From: Anaerovibrio lipolyticus LB2005
GTDB taxonomy: Bacteria; Bacillota; Negativicutes; Selenomonadales; Selenomonadaceae
Assembly (NCBI RefSeq): GCF_000621545.1
Contig: NZ_JHYA01000007.1
Coordinates: forward strand, 1-64,000
Length of the DNA stretch: 64,000 bases
Direction: 5' to 3'
Within the stretch, counting starts at the first letter, position 1. The number at the start of each line of letters is the position of its first letter. Position numbers and translations under genes: made by a program. Below are positions 8,118 through 16,858 of this stretch, one piece after another. Under the pieces are notes generated by a model that searched no databases, was not told the origin of the DNA, and saw only the letters and a program-made list of their open reading frames with translations.

Positions 8118-8157
8118 TGTGATAATCTAAATATGGTAACAAAGAGGAGTGAAGGTA

Positions 8158-8730
8158 TTGGCTAAGTTTTGTAAAAAATGTGGCAAAAAAATTGATGATG
8201 ATGCGGTATTTTGTGATAATTGCGGCACAAAAGTGGCTAGTGGTGGCTCGTTGCCAGCACCATCAGCACTTTTTTATAATAGTAATGGACAATCTCTGGG
8301 ACCGGACTATGCAACCGAAGATGAGGCGTTAAGCTGGTGGAATTGTAGAGGTAGGTTAAATAGGCAAAGATTTATATTTAGATATCTTATACTTATGGCA
8401 ATTACTGTTGTGGTTGGAATTATACTTTTTGGGGTGACTAGTTTGTTAGGAACTAATGTAGTGATGAGCGGCCACAACGAGGATACCGTTATTGGAGTAA
8501 TAGTTATTCTGCTATTATGTGTATTGTTTTTTTTCTTACCACTTACTGTATTAAGTATTTTCATATCCATAAAGAGAGGACATGACTTGAATATTCCTGG
8601 TTGGGTTGTTGTAATTATTAGTTTGTTAGGTGCCTCTTTTTTCCTTTCAATATATTTGGCCGTTGCCGAGGGGAATGATGGAACAAACCAGTATGGTGAA
8701 AACCCACTTAAATATGCTGGCTCCATATAA
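8158..8730 (+). CDS. Zinc-ribbon protein with DUF805 membrane domain
   Basis: About 190 residues. An N-terminal zinc ribbon (CKKCG at 5-9, CDNCG near 19) is joined by a short linker to a DUF805 domain that begins SWWNCRGRLNRQRF and contains three to four membrane helices. DUF805 proteins (YhaH group) have no firm function. The start is taken as TTG at 8158, which sits 8 nt after GAGGAG and gives MAKFCKKCG; the GTG at 8149 overlaps that site and is less likely. A second zinc-ribbon membrane protein lies at 34.6 kb. Role unknown. Confidence 0.85.
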   Translation: MAKFCKKCGKKIDDDAVFCDNCGTKVASGGSLPAPSALFYNSNGQSLGPDYATEDEALSWWNCRGRLNRQRFIFRYLILMAITVVVGIILFGVTSLLGTNVVMSGHNEDTVIGVIVILLLCVLFFFLPLTVLSIFISIKRGHDLNIPGWVVVIISLLGASFFLSIYLAVAEGNDGTNQYGENPLKYAGSI

Positions 8731-9000: not shown

Positions 9001-9975
9001 TTGCAGAATATAGCAGAAGAAATTATTGAATTTGCCGATAGAAGCGAAGCCATGGCTTTGCTGGGAGAAAGAGACGAATATGTTCGTGTACTGATGGAGA
9101 ATTTTGACGCGCGGTTCATTAGCCGTGGAGAGGTGCTGGAAATCAGCGGTGAGTCCTCACAGGTGGAGCCGGCTGCCAAAATTATGCGGGAGCTGCAGTA
9201 CCTGTACAGACAGGGCAATGCCATCACCATGCACGAAGTAAGATATAGTATAGGCTTGGTAAAGGGTGGCAAGGGCGAGGCCCTTCACAGCTTATTTGGG
9301 GATACCATTTTGGTAACCTCCCGTGGCCGTCATGTACGCCCTAAGACTTTGGGTCAGCGTGTTTATGTGGATGCTATTAAAAGAAATTCCATCACCTTTG
9401 GTGTGGGGCCTGCGGGAACGGGAAAAACATATCTGGCGGTGGTTTTGGCCTGTGCAGCCCTTCGCAATCGTGAGGTGGAAAAGCTGATTCTTACCCGCCC
9501 GGCGGTGGAGGCTGGAGAAAAGCTGGGCTTTTTGCCAGGAGATTTGCAGGAAAAGGTTGATCCATATCTTCGTCCTCTTTACGATGCCTTGCAGGATATA
9601 TTGGGGCAGGACACATATCAGAAGCTGATGACCAAAGGGGTTATTGAGATTGCTCCCTTGGCCTATATGCGTGGCCGTACTCTGGAAAATGCCTATGTTA
9701 TTCTCGATGAGGCACAGAACACCACTGCCAAGCAGATGAAAATGTTTTTGACACGTCTTGGCTTTGGCTCCAAGATGGTGGTAACCGGTGACCCAGGGCA
9801 GATTGACTTGCCAAGGGGAGTTACCTCAGGCTTGATAGAAGCAACAAAGGTCCTTGAAAAGGTTAAGGGCATTGAAATAGTACGTATGGAAGCCATGGAT
9901 GTAATCAGACATGACGTTGTATCAAGAATAGTGGAGGCCTATGACCGTTATGAGGCTTCCCGCAAAGAAGATTAA
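9001..9975 (+). CDS. phoH: PhoH family ATPase (YbeZ type)
   Basis: A 324-residue PhoH-like P-loop ATPase with Walker A GPAGTGKT near residue 137 and Walker B with VILDEAQN near 233. An N-terminal region of about 100 residues looks like a small RNA-binding fold, as in YbeZ. The family is linked to RNA metabolism and ribosome maturation and is usually encoded just before ybeY, as here. The start is TTG at 9001, directly after an in-frame TAG and 4 nt after GGTGA; a shorter form from ATG 9052 would cut into conserved sequence. It leads an apparent operon phoH - ybeY-era - recO. Confidence 0.92.
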   Translation: MQNIAEEIIEFADRSEAMALLGERDEYVRVLMENFDARFISRGEVLEISGESSQVEPAAKIMRELQYLYRQGNAITMHEVRYSIGLVKGGKGEALHSLFGDTILVTSRGRHVRPKTLGQRVYVDAIKRNSITFGVGPAGTGKTYLAVVLACAALRNREVEKLILTRPAVEAGEKLGFLPGDLQEKVDPYLRPLYDALQDILGQDTYQKLMTKGVIEIAPLAYMRGRTLENAYVILDEAQNTTAKQMKMFLTRLGFGSKMVVTGDPGQIDLPRGVTSGLIEATKVLEKVKGIEIVRMEAMDVIRHDVVSRIVEAYDRYEASRKED

Positions 9976-9990
9976 TAGGAGAATTTGCCA

Positions 9991-11463
9991 ATGGATGTTA
10001 TTATCAGCCGTGAGCCTGAAGATTTAAAGCTGGAGCCGGAAATTGAGGAAATTGTGCGCAATGCTGCCGAGGTTACTGGGCCTCTTTATGGAGTGGAAAA
10101 TGGGGAGGTAAGCATTACCCTCACCAATAATGAATATATCCATGAGCTTAACAATAAATATCGTGGGCTGGACCGTCCTACTGATGTACTGTCCTTTGCC
10201 TTTGCAGATAGTCAGGAGGATGAGCCTGAGATAGAGGGCGGTCTGGAGACTGAGATTTTGGGAGATATTATTATTTCCGTGGAAAAGGCTCAGGAGCAGG
10301 CCAAGGAATATGGTCACAGCCTTAAAAGGGAGCTGTCCTTCCTTACAGTTCATGGCATGCTTCATCTTATGGGGTATGACCATATGGATGAGGAAGAACG
10401 CCTTGAAATGGAGGAGGAGCAGCGTTATGTAATGGGTAAGCTGGGTATAAGCCGGGATGACGGTGATGACAAGGATATGCAGCTTCCACTGGCTCAGGCC
10501 CCTGATGTTGTAAAGGGCAAGGGCGTAGAAATTGATATAAATTCTATTCCTAAAAACGAGCCAAAGAAATTGCCAAAGGATTATAAGTCCGGCTTTGTGG
10601 CAGTAATCGGCCGTCCTAATGTGGGCAAGTCCACTTTGATAAACAGCCTTATCGGCCAGAAAATCGCCATTATGTCCGATAAGCCTCAGACTACCCGCAA
10701 CAGAATTATGTGTGTGCTGACCAAGCCAGATGCCCAGCTGGTATTTTTGGATACTCCTGGTATTCATAAGCCTATTGATAAGCTGGGAGAATACATGGTA
10801 AAGGCTGCTGAAGGTACTTTGCAGGAGGTTGACGCCATTATTTTCGTGGTGGATGCCAACGAGAAGTTTGGTCCTGGTGAGCATTATATTCTTGAGCGCC
10901 TCAAAGCCACTAAAAAGCCTGTTGTGTTGGCTATTAATAAGGTGGACTTGCTGGAGGACAAGGAAGCGTTGCTGCCGATTATCACCAATTATAACGGTAA
11001 GTACGATTTTGCGGCTACCGTTCCTATTTCAGCTCTGGAGGAAAACAATCTGGAGGGTTTATTGGATGAGGTAAAGAAGTACCTTCCAAAGGGACCTCAG
11101 TATTATCCGGAGGATATGGTTACTGACCAGCCGGAGCGTTTGATTATTGCGGAAATGGTCCGTGAAAAGGTGCTGCATCTTACCCGTGATGAGGTGCCTC
11201 ATTCCATTGCTGTTGATGTGGATGAAATGAAGATTCGTGACAACGGGGATAATTATGTCCGGGTGACCATTTATGTGGAGCGTGATTCCCAAAAGGGTAT
11301 CATTATTGGCAAGAAGGGTGCCATGCTGAAGGAAATCGGTGCCCAGGCCCGTCAGGATGTTCAAATGCTCCTGGGAGGTAAGGTGTTCCTTGACCTTTGG
11401 GTTAAGGTAAAGAAGGATTGGCGTAACCGCGACAATATCCTTAAAGGATTCGGTTTTGAATAA
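9991..11463 (+). CDS. era: YbeY-Era fusion: rRNA-maturation endoribonuclease fused to GTPase Era
   Basis: One uninterrupted frame of about 490 residues holds two proteins that are normally separate. Residues 1-155 are YbeY, with the zinc-binding H-x3-H-x5-H motif in HGMLHLMGYDH near 120-130. After an acidic and then Pro/Lys-rich linker (about 155-198) comes a full Era: G1 GRPNVGKS near 207, G3 DTPG, G4 NKVD, then the KH domain with GIIIGKKGAMLKEIG near 437. YbeY acts in 16S rRNA 3'-end maturation and quality control; Era binds the same 3' end during 30S assembly. ATG 9991 lies 9 nt after AGGAG; a TTG 6 nt upstream is too close to it. No internal ribosome site is evident in the linker. The stop overlaps recO. 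Confidence 0.95.
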   Translation: MDVIISREPEDLKLEPEIEEIVRNAAEVTGPLYGVENGEVSITLTNNEYIHELNNKYRGLDRPTDVLSFAFADSQEDEPEIEGGLETEILGDIIISVEKAQEQAKEYGHSLKRELSFLTVHGMLHLMGYDHMDEEERLEMEEEQRYVMGKLGISRDDGDDKDMQLPLAQAPDVVKGKGVEIDINSIPKNEPKKLPKDYKSGFVAVIGRPNVGKSTLINSLIGQKIAIMSDKPQTTRNRIMCVLTKPDAQLVFLDTPGIHKPIDKLGEYMVKAAEGTLQEVDAIIFVVDANEKFGPGEHYILERLKATKKPVVLAINKVDLLEDKEALLPIITNYNGKYDFAATVPISALEENNLEGLLDEVKKYLPKGPQYYPEDMVTDQPERLIIAEMVREKVLHLTRDEVPHSIAVDVDEMKIRDNGDNYVRVTIYVERDSQKGIIIGKKGAMLKEIGAQARQDVQMLLGGKVFLDLWVKVKKDWRNRDNILKGFGFE

Positions 11464-12200
11464 TGGGACAGTATCAGACTGATGCCCTGGTGCTGGGGGT
11501 AAAGAACTGGGGCGAAGCAGATAAAATAATTACCCTGCTTTCCCGTGAGCATGGGAAAATAACGGCAACGGCCTTTGGCTGTCGTCGCCCTAAAAGCCCT
11601 TTGGCGGGAGCCTTGCAGATGTTCAATGAGGTGGATATCCAGCTTACCAAGGGCAATCGTCTGGATACCGTTCGCCAGGCTTCCTTAAAGCATGCCAACC
11701 GCACAATGAGTACGGATTTTTCAGCCATGGCCTATGGGGCTTTTGTGGCGGAGCTGGCCACAAACTTGGCGGTGGAGGGCTTTCCTCAGAGTGATATGTA
11801 CGATAAGCTGTTGGAGGTCTTTAACGCCTTTGGCAGCCGCAATCCAAGAATTGCGGCTCTGGCGGCGGCTTTTCAGATTCTGGAATTTTCCGGTATGCAG
11901 CTTTCCTATGAAAGATGTGTCAGAAGCGGTCTGGATATTGAGGGCGACGCCTTTTTTTCCATTCAGGAGGGGGGAGCATTGCTTCCGAAAATGGTGCAGC
12001 CAGATGATAAGGGGATTATGGAATACCCTGAAGCTATGCGGGTATTTATTGGCCAGCTTTTGAAGCTAAATTGGCTGGAAAAGCCAGCCTTTAAGGTTAG
12101 CGGCAGTATTATGGTCCAGGCTGAATCCCTGTTATTGGGGTATTTATACAGCATGTTTGGTAAGCCTATGAAATCCTTGAAATTTATTCAACAGCTGTGA
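11463..12200 (+). CDS. recO: DNA repair protein RecO
   Basis: A 245-residue RecO homologue with the N-terminal OB-fold (QTDALVLGVKNWGEADKI) and the helical C-terminal domain. RecO loads RecA on gapped single-stranded DNA together with RecR. Only one cysteine remains in the region where many RecO proteins have a zinc site (YERCVRSG), so zinc binding is probably lost, as in E. coli RecO. The ATG shares bases with the stop codon of the fusion gene (TAATG), implying coupled translation. The era-recO order is usual in Firmicutes. Confidence 0.92.
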   Translation: MGQYQTDALVLGVKNWGEADKIITLLSREHGKITATAFGCRRPKSPLAGALQMFNEVDIQLTKGNRLDTVRQASLKHANRTMSTDFSAMAYGAFVAELATNLAVEGFPQSDMYDKLLEVFNAFGSRNPRIAALAAAFQILEFSGMQLSYERCVRSGLDIEGDAFFSIQEGGALLPKMVQPDDKGIMEYPEAMRVFIGQLLKLNWLEKPAFKVSGSIMVQAESLLLGYLYSMFGKPMKSLKFIQQL

Positions 12201-12964: not shown

Positions 12965-13963
12965 TTAGGACTTACTTTTTTGAGCGTTATCTACTCTGCT
13001 ATTTTGGGCCTTCATCCATTGGGAGTAAGGCTGTGCATATTTATTTCTGTGATTGGCCTGTACATAAGCATAGAAGTTACGAACCTGTTGGGCACGTTTG
13101 CGAATTTCCTCGCCCTTCCAATTATTCTTTTTTCCTGGAGCGAACAAATTCGTGCCACCCAAAGCATGCTGCCGTGCCACAATATCATCCAAAGCTACAT
13201 CCGGATTGCATAGAATGTCATAGAATACCATGAAGGTTGTAGTACGTCCATGTCCTGCATGGCAATGAAAATGCAGCCAGGAATTGGAAGGAAGATTTTT
13301 GTAGAAGTTCATAAATTCATCTATATCCTCATCGCTAGGTGCACATTGGTCTGCAATAGGAATGCGTTTATAATGTATTCCCAGCCGTGCAGTGATTGCT
13401 TCCTCAGTTTCAATCTGCTCCACCTTTACAGTGGAAGCAGTAAACAGCTTTGTATCTGTTTTGCCCAAAGGAACAAAGGTTATTTCCTGGCCCATTATGG
13501 ATTGTAATGCTTTTTCCTCAGCCTGTGGTACTGCTGCGGAAGCCAGGTTACGGTTGCCTAAATTTTTTTTGAAGTAATGGCTTACGGCAAATTCACCGTT
13601 GACAAAGCCGTGGGATTCTTTCCGTAAATCCACCATATAGATGACCGCATTTTTGCCAGCATGCTCGTAAATTTTATCCCTGATCATGGAGAGTCCAAAA
13701 CCAGAAAATTCTGCACTGGCAGAACATCTTAGGGTGTCCATTCCCTTACGGGATGGCACAGAATTTAAATCCTGCGGAAATTCATCTGTCATAAATCTTA
13801 AGCTGCGGGGGAGTACGGCTCCTGGCTTGGAATCAAGTCGCCAAATAGGTGCCTCCTGTTTTTCAGCGGCCTGGGCTGTTGCCATTAGCATAATAAGCAG
13901 AGAACAGACCACAGCAAATATACTGCAAGCGGATTTCTCTATTCGATTTTTTTTCATTAACAT
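12965..13963 (-). CDS. Secreted PTP-like myo-inositol phosphatase (phytase)
   Basis: A 332-residue protein with signal peptide (cleavage likely after ATAQA near residue 33) and a cysteine-phosphatase P-loop HCHAGHGRTTT, matching HC-x5-R-T. This signature and fold region are typical of PTP-like phytases such as that of Selenomonas ruminantium, which remove phosphates from inositol hexakisphosphate outside the cytoplasm. The active-site Cys and Arg are intact. Minus-strand ATG 13963 sits 10 nt after AGGAGGT; an ATG two codons later is a less well-spaced alternative. Inositol polyphosphate as substrate is inference from the family. Confidence 0.9.
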   Translation of the reverse strand: MLMKKNRIEKSACSIFAVVCSLLIMLMATAQAAEKQEAPIWRLDSKPGAVLPRSLRFMTDEFPQDLNSVPSRKGMDTLRCSASAEFSGFGLSMIRDKIYEHAGKNAVIYMVDLRKESHGFVNGEFAVSHYFKKNLGNRNLASAAVPQAEEKALQSIMGQEITFVPLGKTDTKLFTASTVKVEQIETEEAITARLGIHYKRIPIADQCAPSDEDIDEFMNFYKNLPSNSWLHFHCHAGHGRTTTFMVFYDILCNPDVALDDIVARQHALGGTNLFAPGKKNNWKGEEIRKRAQQVRNFYAYVQANHRNKYAQPYSQWMKAQNSRVDNAQKSKS

Positions 13964-14161: not shown

Positions 14162-14638
14162 ATGTTTGAAATAATTACAAAATCCCCTGAGGAAACGGCG
14201 GCCATAGGGGAGAAAATCGGCAGGCTATTTTCTGCCGGGACAGTAATTTGTCTATATGGTGATTTGGGAGCCGGCAAGACACTGTTTGTGCAGAATTTGG
14301 CCAAGGGCTTGGAGATAGATGAGGATGTTACCTCTCCTACATTTAATATAATGAATGTTTACGAAGGAAGGCTACCCCTTTATCATTTTGATTTGTATCG
14401 TCTGGAGCAGGAATATGAGCTGGAGGATATTGGCTTTTACGACTATGTGGATGATCCTGACGGTATTGTGGTTATTGAATGGGCGGACAAGTTTGCCGAC
14501 TGCCTGCCTGATGATTTTGTGTTGCTTACTATTGAAAGAACCGAAGCAGACGAAAATGAGCGTCGCCTGATTTTTGATATCAGAGGGGATGTTTATACAG
14601 ATATTTTCCGGGAGGTGGAAGGGCTGTGCCAATTTTAG
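14162..14638 (+). CDS. tsaE: tRNA t6A synthesis ATPase TsaE
   Basis: A 158-residue P-loop ATPase with Walker A GDLGAGKT near residue 37, then TSPTFNI and the IEWADKF segment typical of TsaE (YjeE). It works with TsaB and TsaD to put threonylcarbamoyl on A37 of tRNAs reading ANN codons. It is first in a compact run tsaE-tsaB-rimI-tsaD; tsaB starts inside it. Confidence 0.95.
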   Translation: MFEIITKSPEETAAIGEKIGRLFSAGTVICLYGDLGAGKTLFVQNLAKGLEIDEDVTSPTFNIMNVYEGRLPLYHFDLYRLEQEYELEDIGFYDYVDDPDGIVVIEWADKFADCLPDDFVLLTIERTEADENERRLIFDIRGDVYTDIFREVEGLCQF

Positions 14639-15345
14639 CAATGGATACTGCTACCATGGTTTCCAGCGTGGCAGTTGCAGATAATAAAAAATTACTGGCT
14701 GAATTAATTGTAGAAAATAAGCTGACCCATTCCGAGACATTGCTTCCACATGTGGAGCAGGTTCTCAATATGGCAGGGGTAAAAAAAGATGCCCTGGAGG
14801 CTGTGGCTGTAAGCGTTGGCCCAGGCTCCTTTACTGGCCTTCGTATCGGACTGGCTGCTGCAAAGGCTATAGCCTATGGTCTTAATATTCCTCTCATTGG
14901 TATTCCCACCATGGAGGGGCTGGCCTGGCATTACCCTGTTCCCGGAATAAGGGTGGCTGGCTTTATTGATGCCCAAAAGGGTAATGTATACACCGCCCAT
15001 TACATGTGGAACGGCAGTGATTTTGATGAGGTAAAGTCTATTGAGGTAGTATCTCTGGATAATGCAATTAAAATATGCAGTGATATTGATGGCCCAGTGG
15101 TGGCTGTGGGAGATATGGTTTCCAAGAAGATGACCAAGCTGGATAATCTGCCGGAAAATCTCATCATTCCACCTAAGCACACCATGATGCCGCGGGCAGC
15201 CAATATCGCCATGTCTGGTTTGAAGAAGCTGGCGGCAGGTCAGGTGGGCTCAGTGATGGATATGGAGCCTATTTATATAAGAAAGTCTGAGGCAGAGGTG
15301 CTTTGGGAAAAGCGTCAGGAAAAGCTGCAGCAGGAGGCAAAATGA
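14626..15345 (+). CDS. tsaB: tRNA t6A synthesis scaffold TsaB
   Basis: A 239-residue ASKHA-fold protein without the metal-binding motif of TsaD, starting PILAMDTATMVSSVAV and containing GPGSFTGLRIGLAAAKAIA. It dimerises with TsaD in the t6A complex. The GTG start at 14626 overlaps the end of tsaE by 13 nt. Its stop overlaps the rimI start (ATGA). Confidence 0.95.
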   Translation: MPILAMDTATMVSSVAVADNKKLLAELIVENKLTHSETLLPHVEQVLNMAGVKKDALEAVAVSVGPGSFTGLRIGLAAAKAIAYGLNIPLIGIPTMEGLAWHYPVPGIRVAGFIDAQKGNVYTAHYMWNGSDFDEVKSIEVVSLDNAIKICSDIDGPVVAVGDMVSKKMTKLDNLPENLIIPPKHTMMPRAANIAMSGLKKLAAGQVGSVMDMEPIYIRKSEAEVLWEKRQEKLQQEAK

Positions 15346-15791
15346 TTAGCTTTCGTAAAATGGTGCCTGAGGATGCTGATGCGGTGGCTGAGGTTGAAAA
15401 GCAGTGCTTTGCTACGCCATGGTCCCGCGAATCCTTCTGGCGTGATGCCTCCAGCAGTGATACCTATTATCTTCTTGCTGTTGATGAGGAAGCTGATAAC
15501 AAAGTAATCGGCTATGTGGGGTGCTGGATTTTGGCCTATGAAGGCAGTATTACCAATGTGGCCATAGCTCCAGACTATCGCCGTCAGGGAATTGGGCGGC
15601 AGATGCTCCTTAAGTTAATTGAGGAGGTTAAGGCCCGTGGGGTTACAGCTATGACTTTGGAGGCAAGGGTTTCCAATACTCCTGCTATTAAATTATATGA
15701 AGGCCTGGGCTTTAAAAGTGTAGGCCAGAGACCGAAATATTATACCAGTCCTGTGGAGGATGCCGAAATAATGTGGAATACCCATATTTAA
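15342..15791 (+). CDS. rimI: N-acetyltransferase RimI
   Basis: A 149-residue GNAT acetyltransferase with the acetyl-CoA loop RRQGIGRQ near residue 81 and the [13 protein letters not shown] segment typical of RimI, which acetylates the N terminus of ribosomal protein S18 in E. coli. ATG 15342 lies behind CAGGAGG and overlaps the tsaB stop. Its place between tsaB and tsaD is common in Firmicutes. Confidence 0.92.
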
Positions 15792-15817
15792 GGCTGGTTA
15801 TTGATATGGAGAAAAAT

Positions 15818-16858
15818 ATGGATAAGGTTAATAAGGATAAAGAAAAGATTGTTACTCTGGCCATTGAGTCCAGTTGTGATGAGACCTCGGCGGCTGTGCT
15901 GGTTGGTGGCAGAACTGTGCTTTCCAACATTATAGCTACCCAGATTCCAATACATAGAAAATTCGGAGGGGTGGTACCGGAAATTGCCTCCCGTAAGCAT
16001 ATTGTCAATGTGATGCCAGTTATTGATGAGGCTTTGGAAAAGGCCGGCGTTACTCTGCAGGATATCGATCAGGTGGCTGTAACCTACGGCCCGGGGCTTG
16101 TGGGAGCCTTGTTGGTAGGTGTATCTGCTGCCAAGGCGTTGGCCTTTACTTTGGGAGTGCCCCTTATCGGAGTAAATCATTTGGAGGGACACATTTTTGC
16201 CAATTTCCTCAGTGCTCCCGATTTAAAACCGCCATTTATGGCATTGGTAGTTTCCGGTGGACATACCTCTCTGGTTCATGTAAAGGATTATAATTCCTTC
16301 AGCCTTATGGGTCAGACCAGGGATGACGCGGCTGGGGAGGCCTTTGACAAGGTGGCAAGGGTTATGGGACTGCCATATCCTGGTGGCCCGCAGATAGATA
16401 AGCTGGCCCAGGAGGGTGACCCTATGGCCATTGACTTTCCTAGGGCATTACAGGAAAAGGGCAACTACGAATTCAGTTTCAGCGGTTTGAAGTCTGCGGT
16501 GCTTAACTATCTTAACAGCATGAAGCTGAAGGGTATTGAAGTAAATAAGGCTGATGTGGCAGCTTCTTTCCAGCATACTGTTATTGAGGTGTTGTTGGCC
16601 AAGGCTTTGGACGCTGTAAAGGAAACTGGCTGTGACACTCTGGTATTGGCCGGGGGTGTGGCCGCAAACAGCTCTTTGGAAAAGAGACTCCGTGAGGTAA
16701 CAGCCAAGAATAATATTAAATTCTATTTCCCGGATAAAATCCTTTGCACTGATAATGCTGCCATGATAGGCTGCCGGGGATACTATCAGTCCTTGGCGGG
16801 TAATTACTCAGACTTATATTTGAATGCGGTGCCGGGGCTGGCGTTACAGGATTTGTAA
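15818..16858 (+). CDS. tsaD: tRNA N6-threonylcarbamoyltransferase TsaD
   Basis: The catalytic subunit of t6A synthesis, about 346 residues, ASKHA fold. The opening [14 protein letters not shown], the metal-binding HLEGH motif and SGGHTSL are present. ATG 15818 lies 6 nt after GGAG; ATG 15806 in the same frame is possible and would add four residues. Last gene of the t6A cluster and closely followed by the histidine kinase gene (21 nt gap). Confidence 0.95.

Follow-up and report, generated by a model that had tools for sequence, protein, structure and literature searches.

Our analysis of the window, the whole stretch of 64,000 nucleotides examined from Anaerovibrio lipolyticus LB2005 (contig NZ_JHYA01000007.1, positions 1 to 64,000 of the forward strand), shows that YbeY and Era are encoded in this bacterium as one protein; the uninterrupted frame with both complete parts confirms the main claim of an initial annotation of this DNA. 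Judging from its sequence, the protein is very probably a bifunctional 30S assembly factor, in which YbeY, a probably flexible linker of 43 residues and Era make up one 55-kDa polypeptide encoded in a phoH-ybeY::era-recO cluster. The YbeY-Era fusion is already known, and the present one is an instance in an order already named. The features of the region are as follows.

9001 to 9975, plus strand: phoH/ybeZ, 15 bases upstream of the fusion (PF02562, 2.5e-95)
9977 to 9981, plus strand: AGGAG, Shine-Dalgarno-like sequence for the fusion (read from the sequence)
9991 to 11463, plus strand: ybeY-era fusion gene, one open frame of 490 codons plus stop
9991 to 10455, plus strand: YbeY part, residues 1-155 (PF02130 and TIGR00043)
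10456 to 10584, plus strand: linker, residues 156-198 (43 residues), with no family of its own
10477 to 10479, plus strand: Met163, sole in-frame ATG in the linker, a weak candidate internal start (anti-SD -3.1 kcal/mol)
10585 to 11460, plus strand: Era part, residues 199-490 (NF000908, TIGR00436, Pfam, PDB)
11463 to 12200, plus strand: recO (RecO_N 4.8e-24, RecO_C 2.8e-14)

The frame (9985/9991-11463, plus strand) contains no internal stop. ATG at 9991 is preferred as the start because AGGAG sits 9 bases upstream; TTG at 9985 is a less likely alternative. At the other end, the start of recO overlaps the stop of the fusion by one base (TAATG, read from the sequence). The translation has 490 residues and a computed mass of 55.3 kDa, in agreement with the product of about 55 kDa expected earlier, and its closest named match is a protein of Anaerovibrio sp. 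RM50, with 97% identity across residues 1-490. Elsewhere in the window, 8149-8730 (plus strand) encodes a small protein in which an N-terminal zinc ribbon is joined to a DUF805 domain, and 12965-13963 (minus strand), downstream of recO, encodes a PTP-like phytase of the inositol hexakisphosphatase family (PF14566, 7.7e-26). A row of TsaE, a TsaB-like protein (TsaD family match), a GNAT acetyltransferase and TsaD, whose listed frames overlap one another, occupies 14162-16858 (plus strand).

The YbeY part matches PF02130 of Pfam at residues 18-150 (1.3e-44; 151.6 bits against a cut-off of 25) and TIGR00043 of NCBIfam at residues 17-154 (154.6 bits against a cut-off of 45). The motif HGMLHLMGYDH is present in the translation and includes H121, H125 and H131; these histidines and R58 are invariant across 12 fused sequences. 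We take H-x3-H-x5-H (H121/H125/H131) to be the zinc site of YbeY and R58 to be its conserved arginine. The profile matches, together with the three histidines, bear out the claim of a complete YbeY with an intact zinc motif. The Era part is covered by the full length of NF000908 (residues 198-489, model 1-291 of 291, 402.2 bits against a cut-off of 237) and of TIGR00436 (model 1-270 of 270, 328.1 bits against a cut-off of 116.25), and it matches Era in the PDB (9jkp_B) at 3.3e-112. Within it, Pfam places the GTPase domain (MMR_HSR1) at residues 203-317 (2.4e-28) and KH_2 at residues 401-478 (2.3e-21), and GRPNVGKS, DTPG, NKVD and IIGKKG all occur in the translation. The first three are G motifs of the Era GTPase, with the KH domain after them. 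The full-model match, the motifs and KH_2 thus agree with the earlier description of a complete Era.

We searched the whole genome of the organism, which comprises 31 contigs totalling 2.68 Mb and has a listed completeness of 100%, for further copies. The fusion was the one YbeY match genome-wide, and it gave the one full-length Era match, the partial Era matches resembling other GTPases; the presence of an additional, unfused copy of YbeY or Era was therefore rejected. A search of the same genome for DgkA (PF01219) gave no match, while the control search was positive in 8 of 14 well-known genomes, and a relocation of DgkA to another place in the genome was accordingly discarded.

One could suspect that a stop codon between the two genes was removed by an assembly or sequencing error, since many of the relatives are represented by draft assemblies and in one relative (G052) just one TGA separates the two genes, which share a frame. 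However, each of the 16 genomes of the window's genus, its own included, gives one full-length match, the linker shows a coding type of evolution, and the architecture has already been published (PMC10582724, PMC6738653). The agreement of the 16 genomes led us to reject assembly error as the source of the fusion, and we give this explanation practically no probability.

The linker measures 43 residues, close to the length of about 45 first estimated, and profile searches against Pfam and NCBIfam found no family of its own in it, although an alignment to a paralogous GTPase can start inside it (RsgA, from residue 177). Across 11 pairs within the genus its pN/pS was 0.23 (pS 0.54, pN 0.125), compared with 0.11 in YbeY and 0.05 in Era for the same pairs. 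Synonymous change was equally frequent in all three segments, pS being 0.54 in the linker and 0.54 and 0.60 in the two domains, and third codon positions held 81 of the 133 linker changes in the six pairs tabulated. The ratio fell to 0.03-0.09 in the three pairs among G000 (the window's own genome), G077 and G176 and rose to 0.56 in single distant pairs. Our results show that the linker evolves as protein-coding sequence under purifying selection, and this selection supports the idea that cells would produce the fusion as a single polypeptide. Furthermore, the linker shows no shortage of synonymous change. This argues against the conservation of a ribosome-binding site inside it, and nothing pointed to any conserved signal at the DNA level there. 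Alternatively, the polypeptide might be cut in the linker after translation, so that the working proteins are separate. For such a cut it may be said that the linker has no domain of its own and is the least conserved part, with a pN/pS reaching 0.56 in one pair; however, its length and sequence vary between the fused groups, so that no common site is obvious, and we regard cleavage as highly improbable.

An internal translation start in the linker had been pointed out as a thing to look for, and the result was divided: Met163 of the window lies near the median of the null, whereas some congeners have a good Shine-Dalgarno sequence at this place. The window's linker offers two start candidates, a TTG (-2.2 kcal/mol for anti-SD pairing) and the ATG of Met163; the null, drawn from 1326 in-frame start-like codons inside Era, had a median of -2.6, and 14% of its members reached -5. 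In split relatives the best Era start had a median of -7.45 kcal/mol, and 45 of 48 loci were at or below -5. Compared with this median, the best linker start of the window (-3.1) gives no indication of the usual Era ribosome-binding site. Start candidates were found in 24 of 27 fused loci, 16 of these 24 being at or below -5, a count helped by the presence of several candidates per locus. A shorter Era is thus a possible additional product in some relatives, as their sequences suggest, and one may ask whether two products, the full fusion and a free, N-terminally extended Era from Met163, are made in the window's organism as well. The methionine is kept in 17 of the 18 sequences of the window's group (16 of g1, the window's genus, and two of g13), and 7 of these 17 have a Shine-Dalgarno energy of -5 or lower, compared with 14% of the null, with values of -10.6 in G176, -10.9 in G253 and -6.8 in G251, although the protein of G251 is 99% identical to that of the window. 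Moreover, the separately placed G371 has an ATG six codons before KSGF at -8.3, as if a former Era start survived within the fused frame. However, the window's own Met163 is close to the null median, the methionine is lost in G258, and synonymous sites of the linker are not conserved. On balance, the production of two proteins here seems rather improbable, and a single full-length product is preferred.

Mapping the fusion in Negativicutes, which had been proposed earlier, upheld its placement. One full-length match (E <= 1e-170) was obtained in 29 of 189 Selenomonadaceae genomes; in two of them (G052 and G266) stops lie between the parts, and the other 27, the window's own included, carry in-frame fusions. 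By genus, these are 16 in g1, two in g13, two in g8, one in g19 and six in g2. The 27 are a lower bound, as 37 of the 160 other family genomes were checked by frame. All 37 were split, which with G052 and G266 makes 39 split family loci, and in 36 of these the YbeY and Era matches are at most 100 bases apart (the exceptions being 148, 314 and 508). The fusion is thus patchy within Selenomonadaceae. No member of the window's genus occurred among the 20 genomes listed of the 160 without a match. The stretches extracted for L066 and L084 showed no YbeY, and for the genomes of L038-L040 shorter loci were used in their stead. Two individual loci may be mentioned. In G261 (L098, oriented 1579-1581), codon 27 in the YbeY part of the fusion is a TAG, which may reflect faulty sequencing of this draft genome. 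In G052 (L046), where ybeY and era share a reading frame, one TGA alone parts them and the matches lie 72 bases from each other; such an arrangement could yield a fusion by stop loss.

Outside Selenomonadaceae, 18 loci and three more from class members (L094-L096, left out of the later steps) were all split. Tight spacing is not specific to the family, since several loci outside it, e.g. L087, L088, L143 and L144, have gaps of 39-114 bases. An open reading frame between ybeY and era, named by eye, was cytidine-deaminase-like in L093 and DgkA-like in L090. Because a threshold of 1e-142 was too stringent to reveal distant fusions in 398 genomes of the phylum, the search was run again at 1e-103, which gave a match in 164 of the 398. 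Among the matches listed, which leave out the weakest, only the window's genome and its congener G077 had one uninterrupted match; several other matches joining both parts, or part of the linker, carry internal stops (e.g. G732, G405 and G759), and all nine phylum genomes read by frame were split. No clostridial fusion was found among the phylum matches listed, although one of lower similarity or with a longer linker could have escaped notice. Long open frames had hinted at larger fusions in class and phylum relatives, and these were rejected, all chosen regions being split.

Trees of PhoH, YbeY and Era were made for 74 of 84 loci, leaving out nine phylum loci and L089, and a tree of 38 rows (14 fused, 24 split) was made from a choice of the 74. 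The fused rows fall in four groups: g1 with g13, the two g8 genomes (G125/G250), G371, and the six g2 genomes. The fused/split label requires four changes on the 38-row tree, three of them forced by well-supported branches, and a single clade of all 14 fused rows was rejected on this tree (lnL 133 lower, p 2e-112). In AU tests with eight g1/g13, two g8, one g19 and three g2 rows, in groups named after the trees were seen, the joining of g1/g13 with g2 (p 0.0099), of G125/G250 with g2 (p 0.003), of g1/g13 with G371 (p 0.023) and of all of g1/g13, G125/G250 and G371 (p 0.012) was rejected; that of g1/g13 with G125/G250 (p 0.147) and of G125/G250 with G371 (p 0.15) was not. The linkers also differ by group, being about 43 residues in Anaerovibrio and shorter and rich in Lys, Ala and Pro in the Selenomonas-like group. 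LPL-A/G-Q is common to the g8 linkers and most g1/g13 linkers, and these two groups may therefore go back to one event. Because of the four groups and the rejection of one clade, we consider it fairly likely that YbeY and Era became fused on three or four separate occasions in Selenomonadaceae, with linkers that differ.

Change counts alone cannot separate gains from losses, and one possible explanation of the same pattern is a single older fusion in part of the family that was split again later. The LPL-A/G-Q shared by most g1/g13 and the G125/G250 linkers and the two joins that the AU test did not reject are in accord with it; however, the other four joins and the single fused clade were rejected, and re-splitting would require that a stop and a ribosome-binding site both arise anew, which makes repeated fusion the simpler reading. 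We consider the older fusion unlikely, though less so than the alternatives discussed above. In a history of repeated fusion, ybeY and era would have started as the close neighbours that they are in most of the family, at most 100 bases apart; likely, the ybeY stop was then lost, the frame adjusted and the ribosome-binding site of era lost. If true, repeated fusion implies recurrent selection for the co-delivery of YbeY and Era and offers a natural series for testing the required proximity of the two on the 30S subunit.

Interactions of YbeY with its partners Era and uS11 are described for E. coli and for human mitochondria (PMC5101352, PMC7515705), and the interaction in E. coli stated in the initial annotation is thus in print (PMC5101352); in S. 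aureus the YbeY-Era interaction is weak (PMC6738653). The annotation further held that both proteins act at the 3' end of 16S rRNA and that the fusion would place a nuclease beside the GTPase that binds its product end. The partnership of the two stands and such a placement is possible, but a 2023 review (PMC10582724) argues that Era has no direct role in final 3' processing, so that the 3'-end role is disputed; the review argues instead for cooperation of Era with YbeY in installing uS11, and it lists the working of fused Era proteins as an open question. In the fusion, the KH domain of Era would bind the 3' end of 16S rRNA, the tethered YbeY would act at uS11 and the platform, and the single polypeptide would supply the maturing 30S platform with both factors in a 1:1 ratio. 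The existence of natural fusions favours a joint action of YbeY and Era at one step of 30S assembly. Furthermore, fused and split close relatives can be paired, so that linker swaps or a separation of YbeY from Era could show what the tether does and how much its length and sequence matter.

The initial annotation left it in doubt whether the fusion had been described, and it is already in print (PMC10582724, PMC6738653). Fusions of Era are extremely rare according to PMC10582724, which gives an N-terminal YbeY as by far the commonest and names it in several Clostridia, some Selenomonadales and Thermoleophilum album. No count of origins or analysis of the linker was found in our searches of open-licence papers, and no open-licence paper joining Anaerovibrio and YbeY was found. 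The window's protein resembles the published fusions (PMC10582724, 2023; PMC6738653, 2019) in combining YbeY with a complete Era within a single chain, with YbeY N-terminal as described in PMC10582724, and no architectural difference was found from these accounts. The S. aureus operon (PMC6738653) has the same two families clustered with YbeZ/PhoH and RecO; however, ybeY and era are separate there and DgkA and Cdd are also encoded, whereas in the window they form a single fused gene and no further gene separates them. The Era-RNase III fusion of some Rickettsia (PMC10582724) likewise joins Era to a ribonuclease of rRNA processing, but its nuclease belongs to another family than YbeY.
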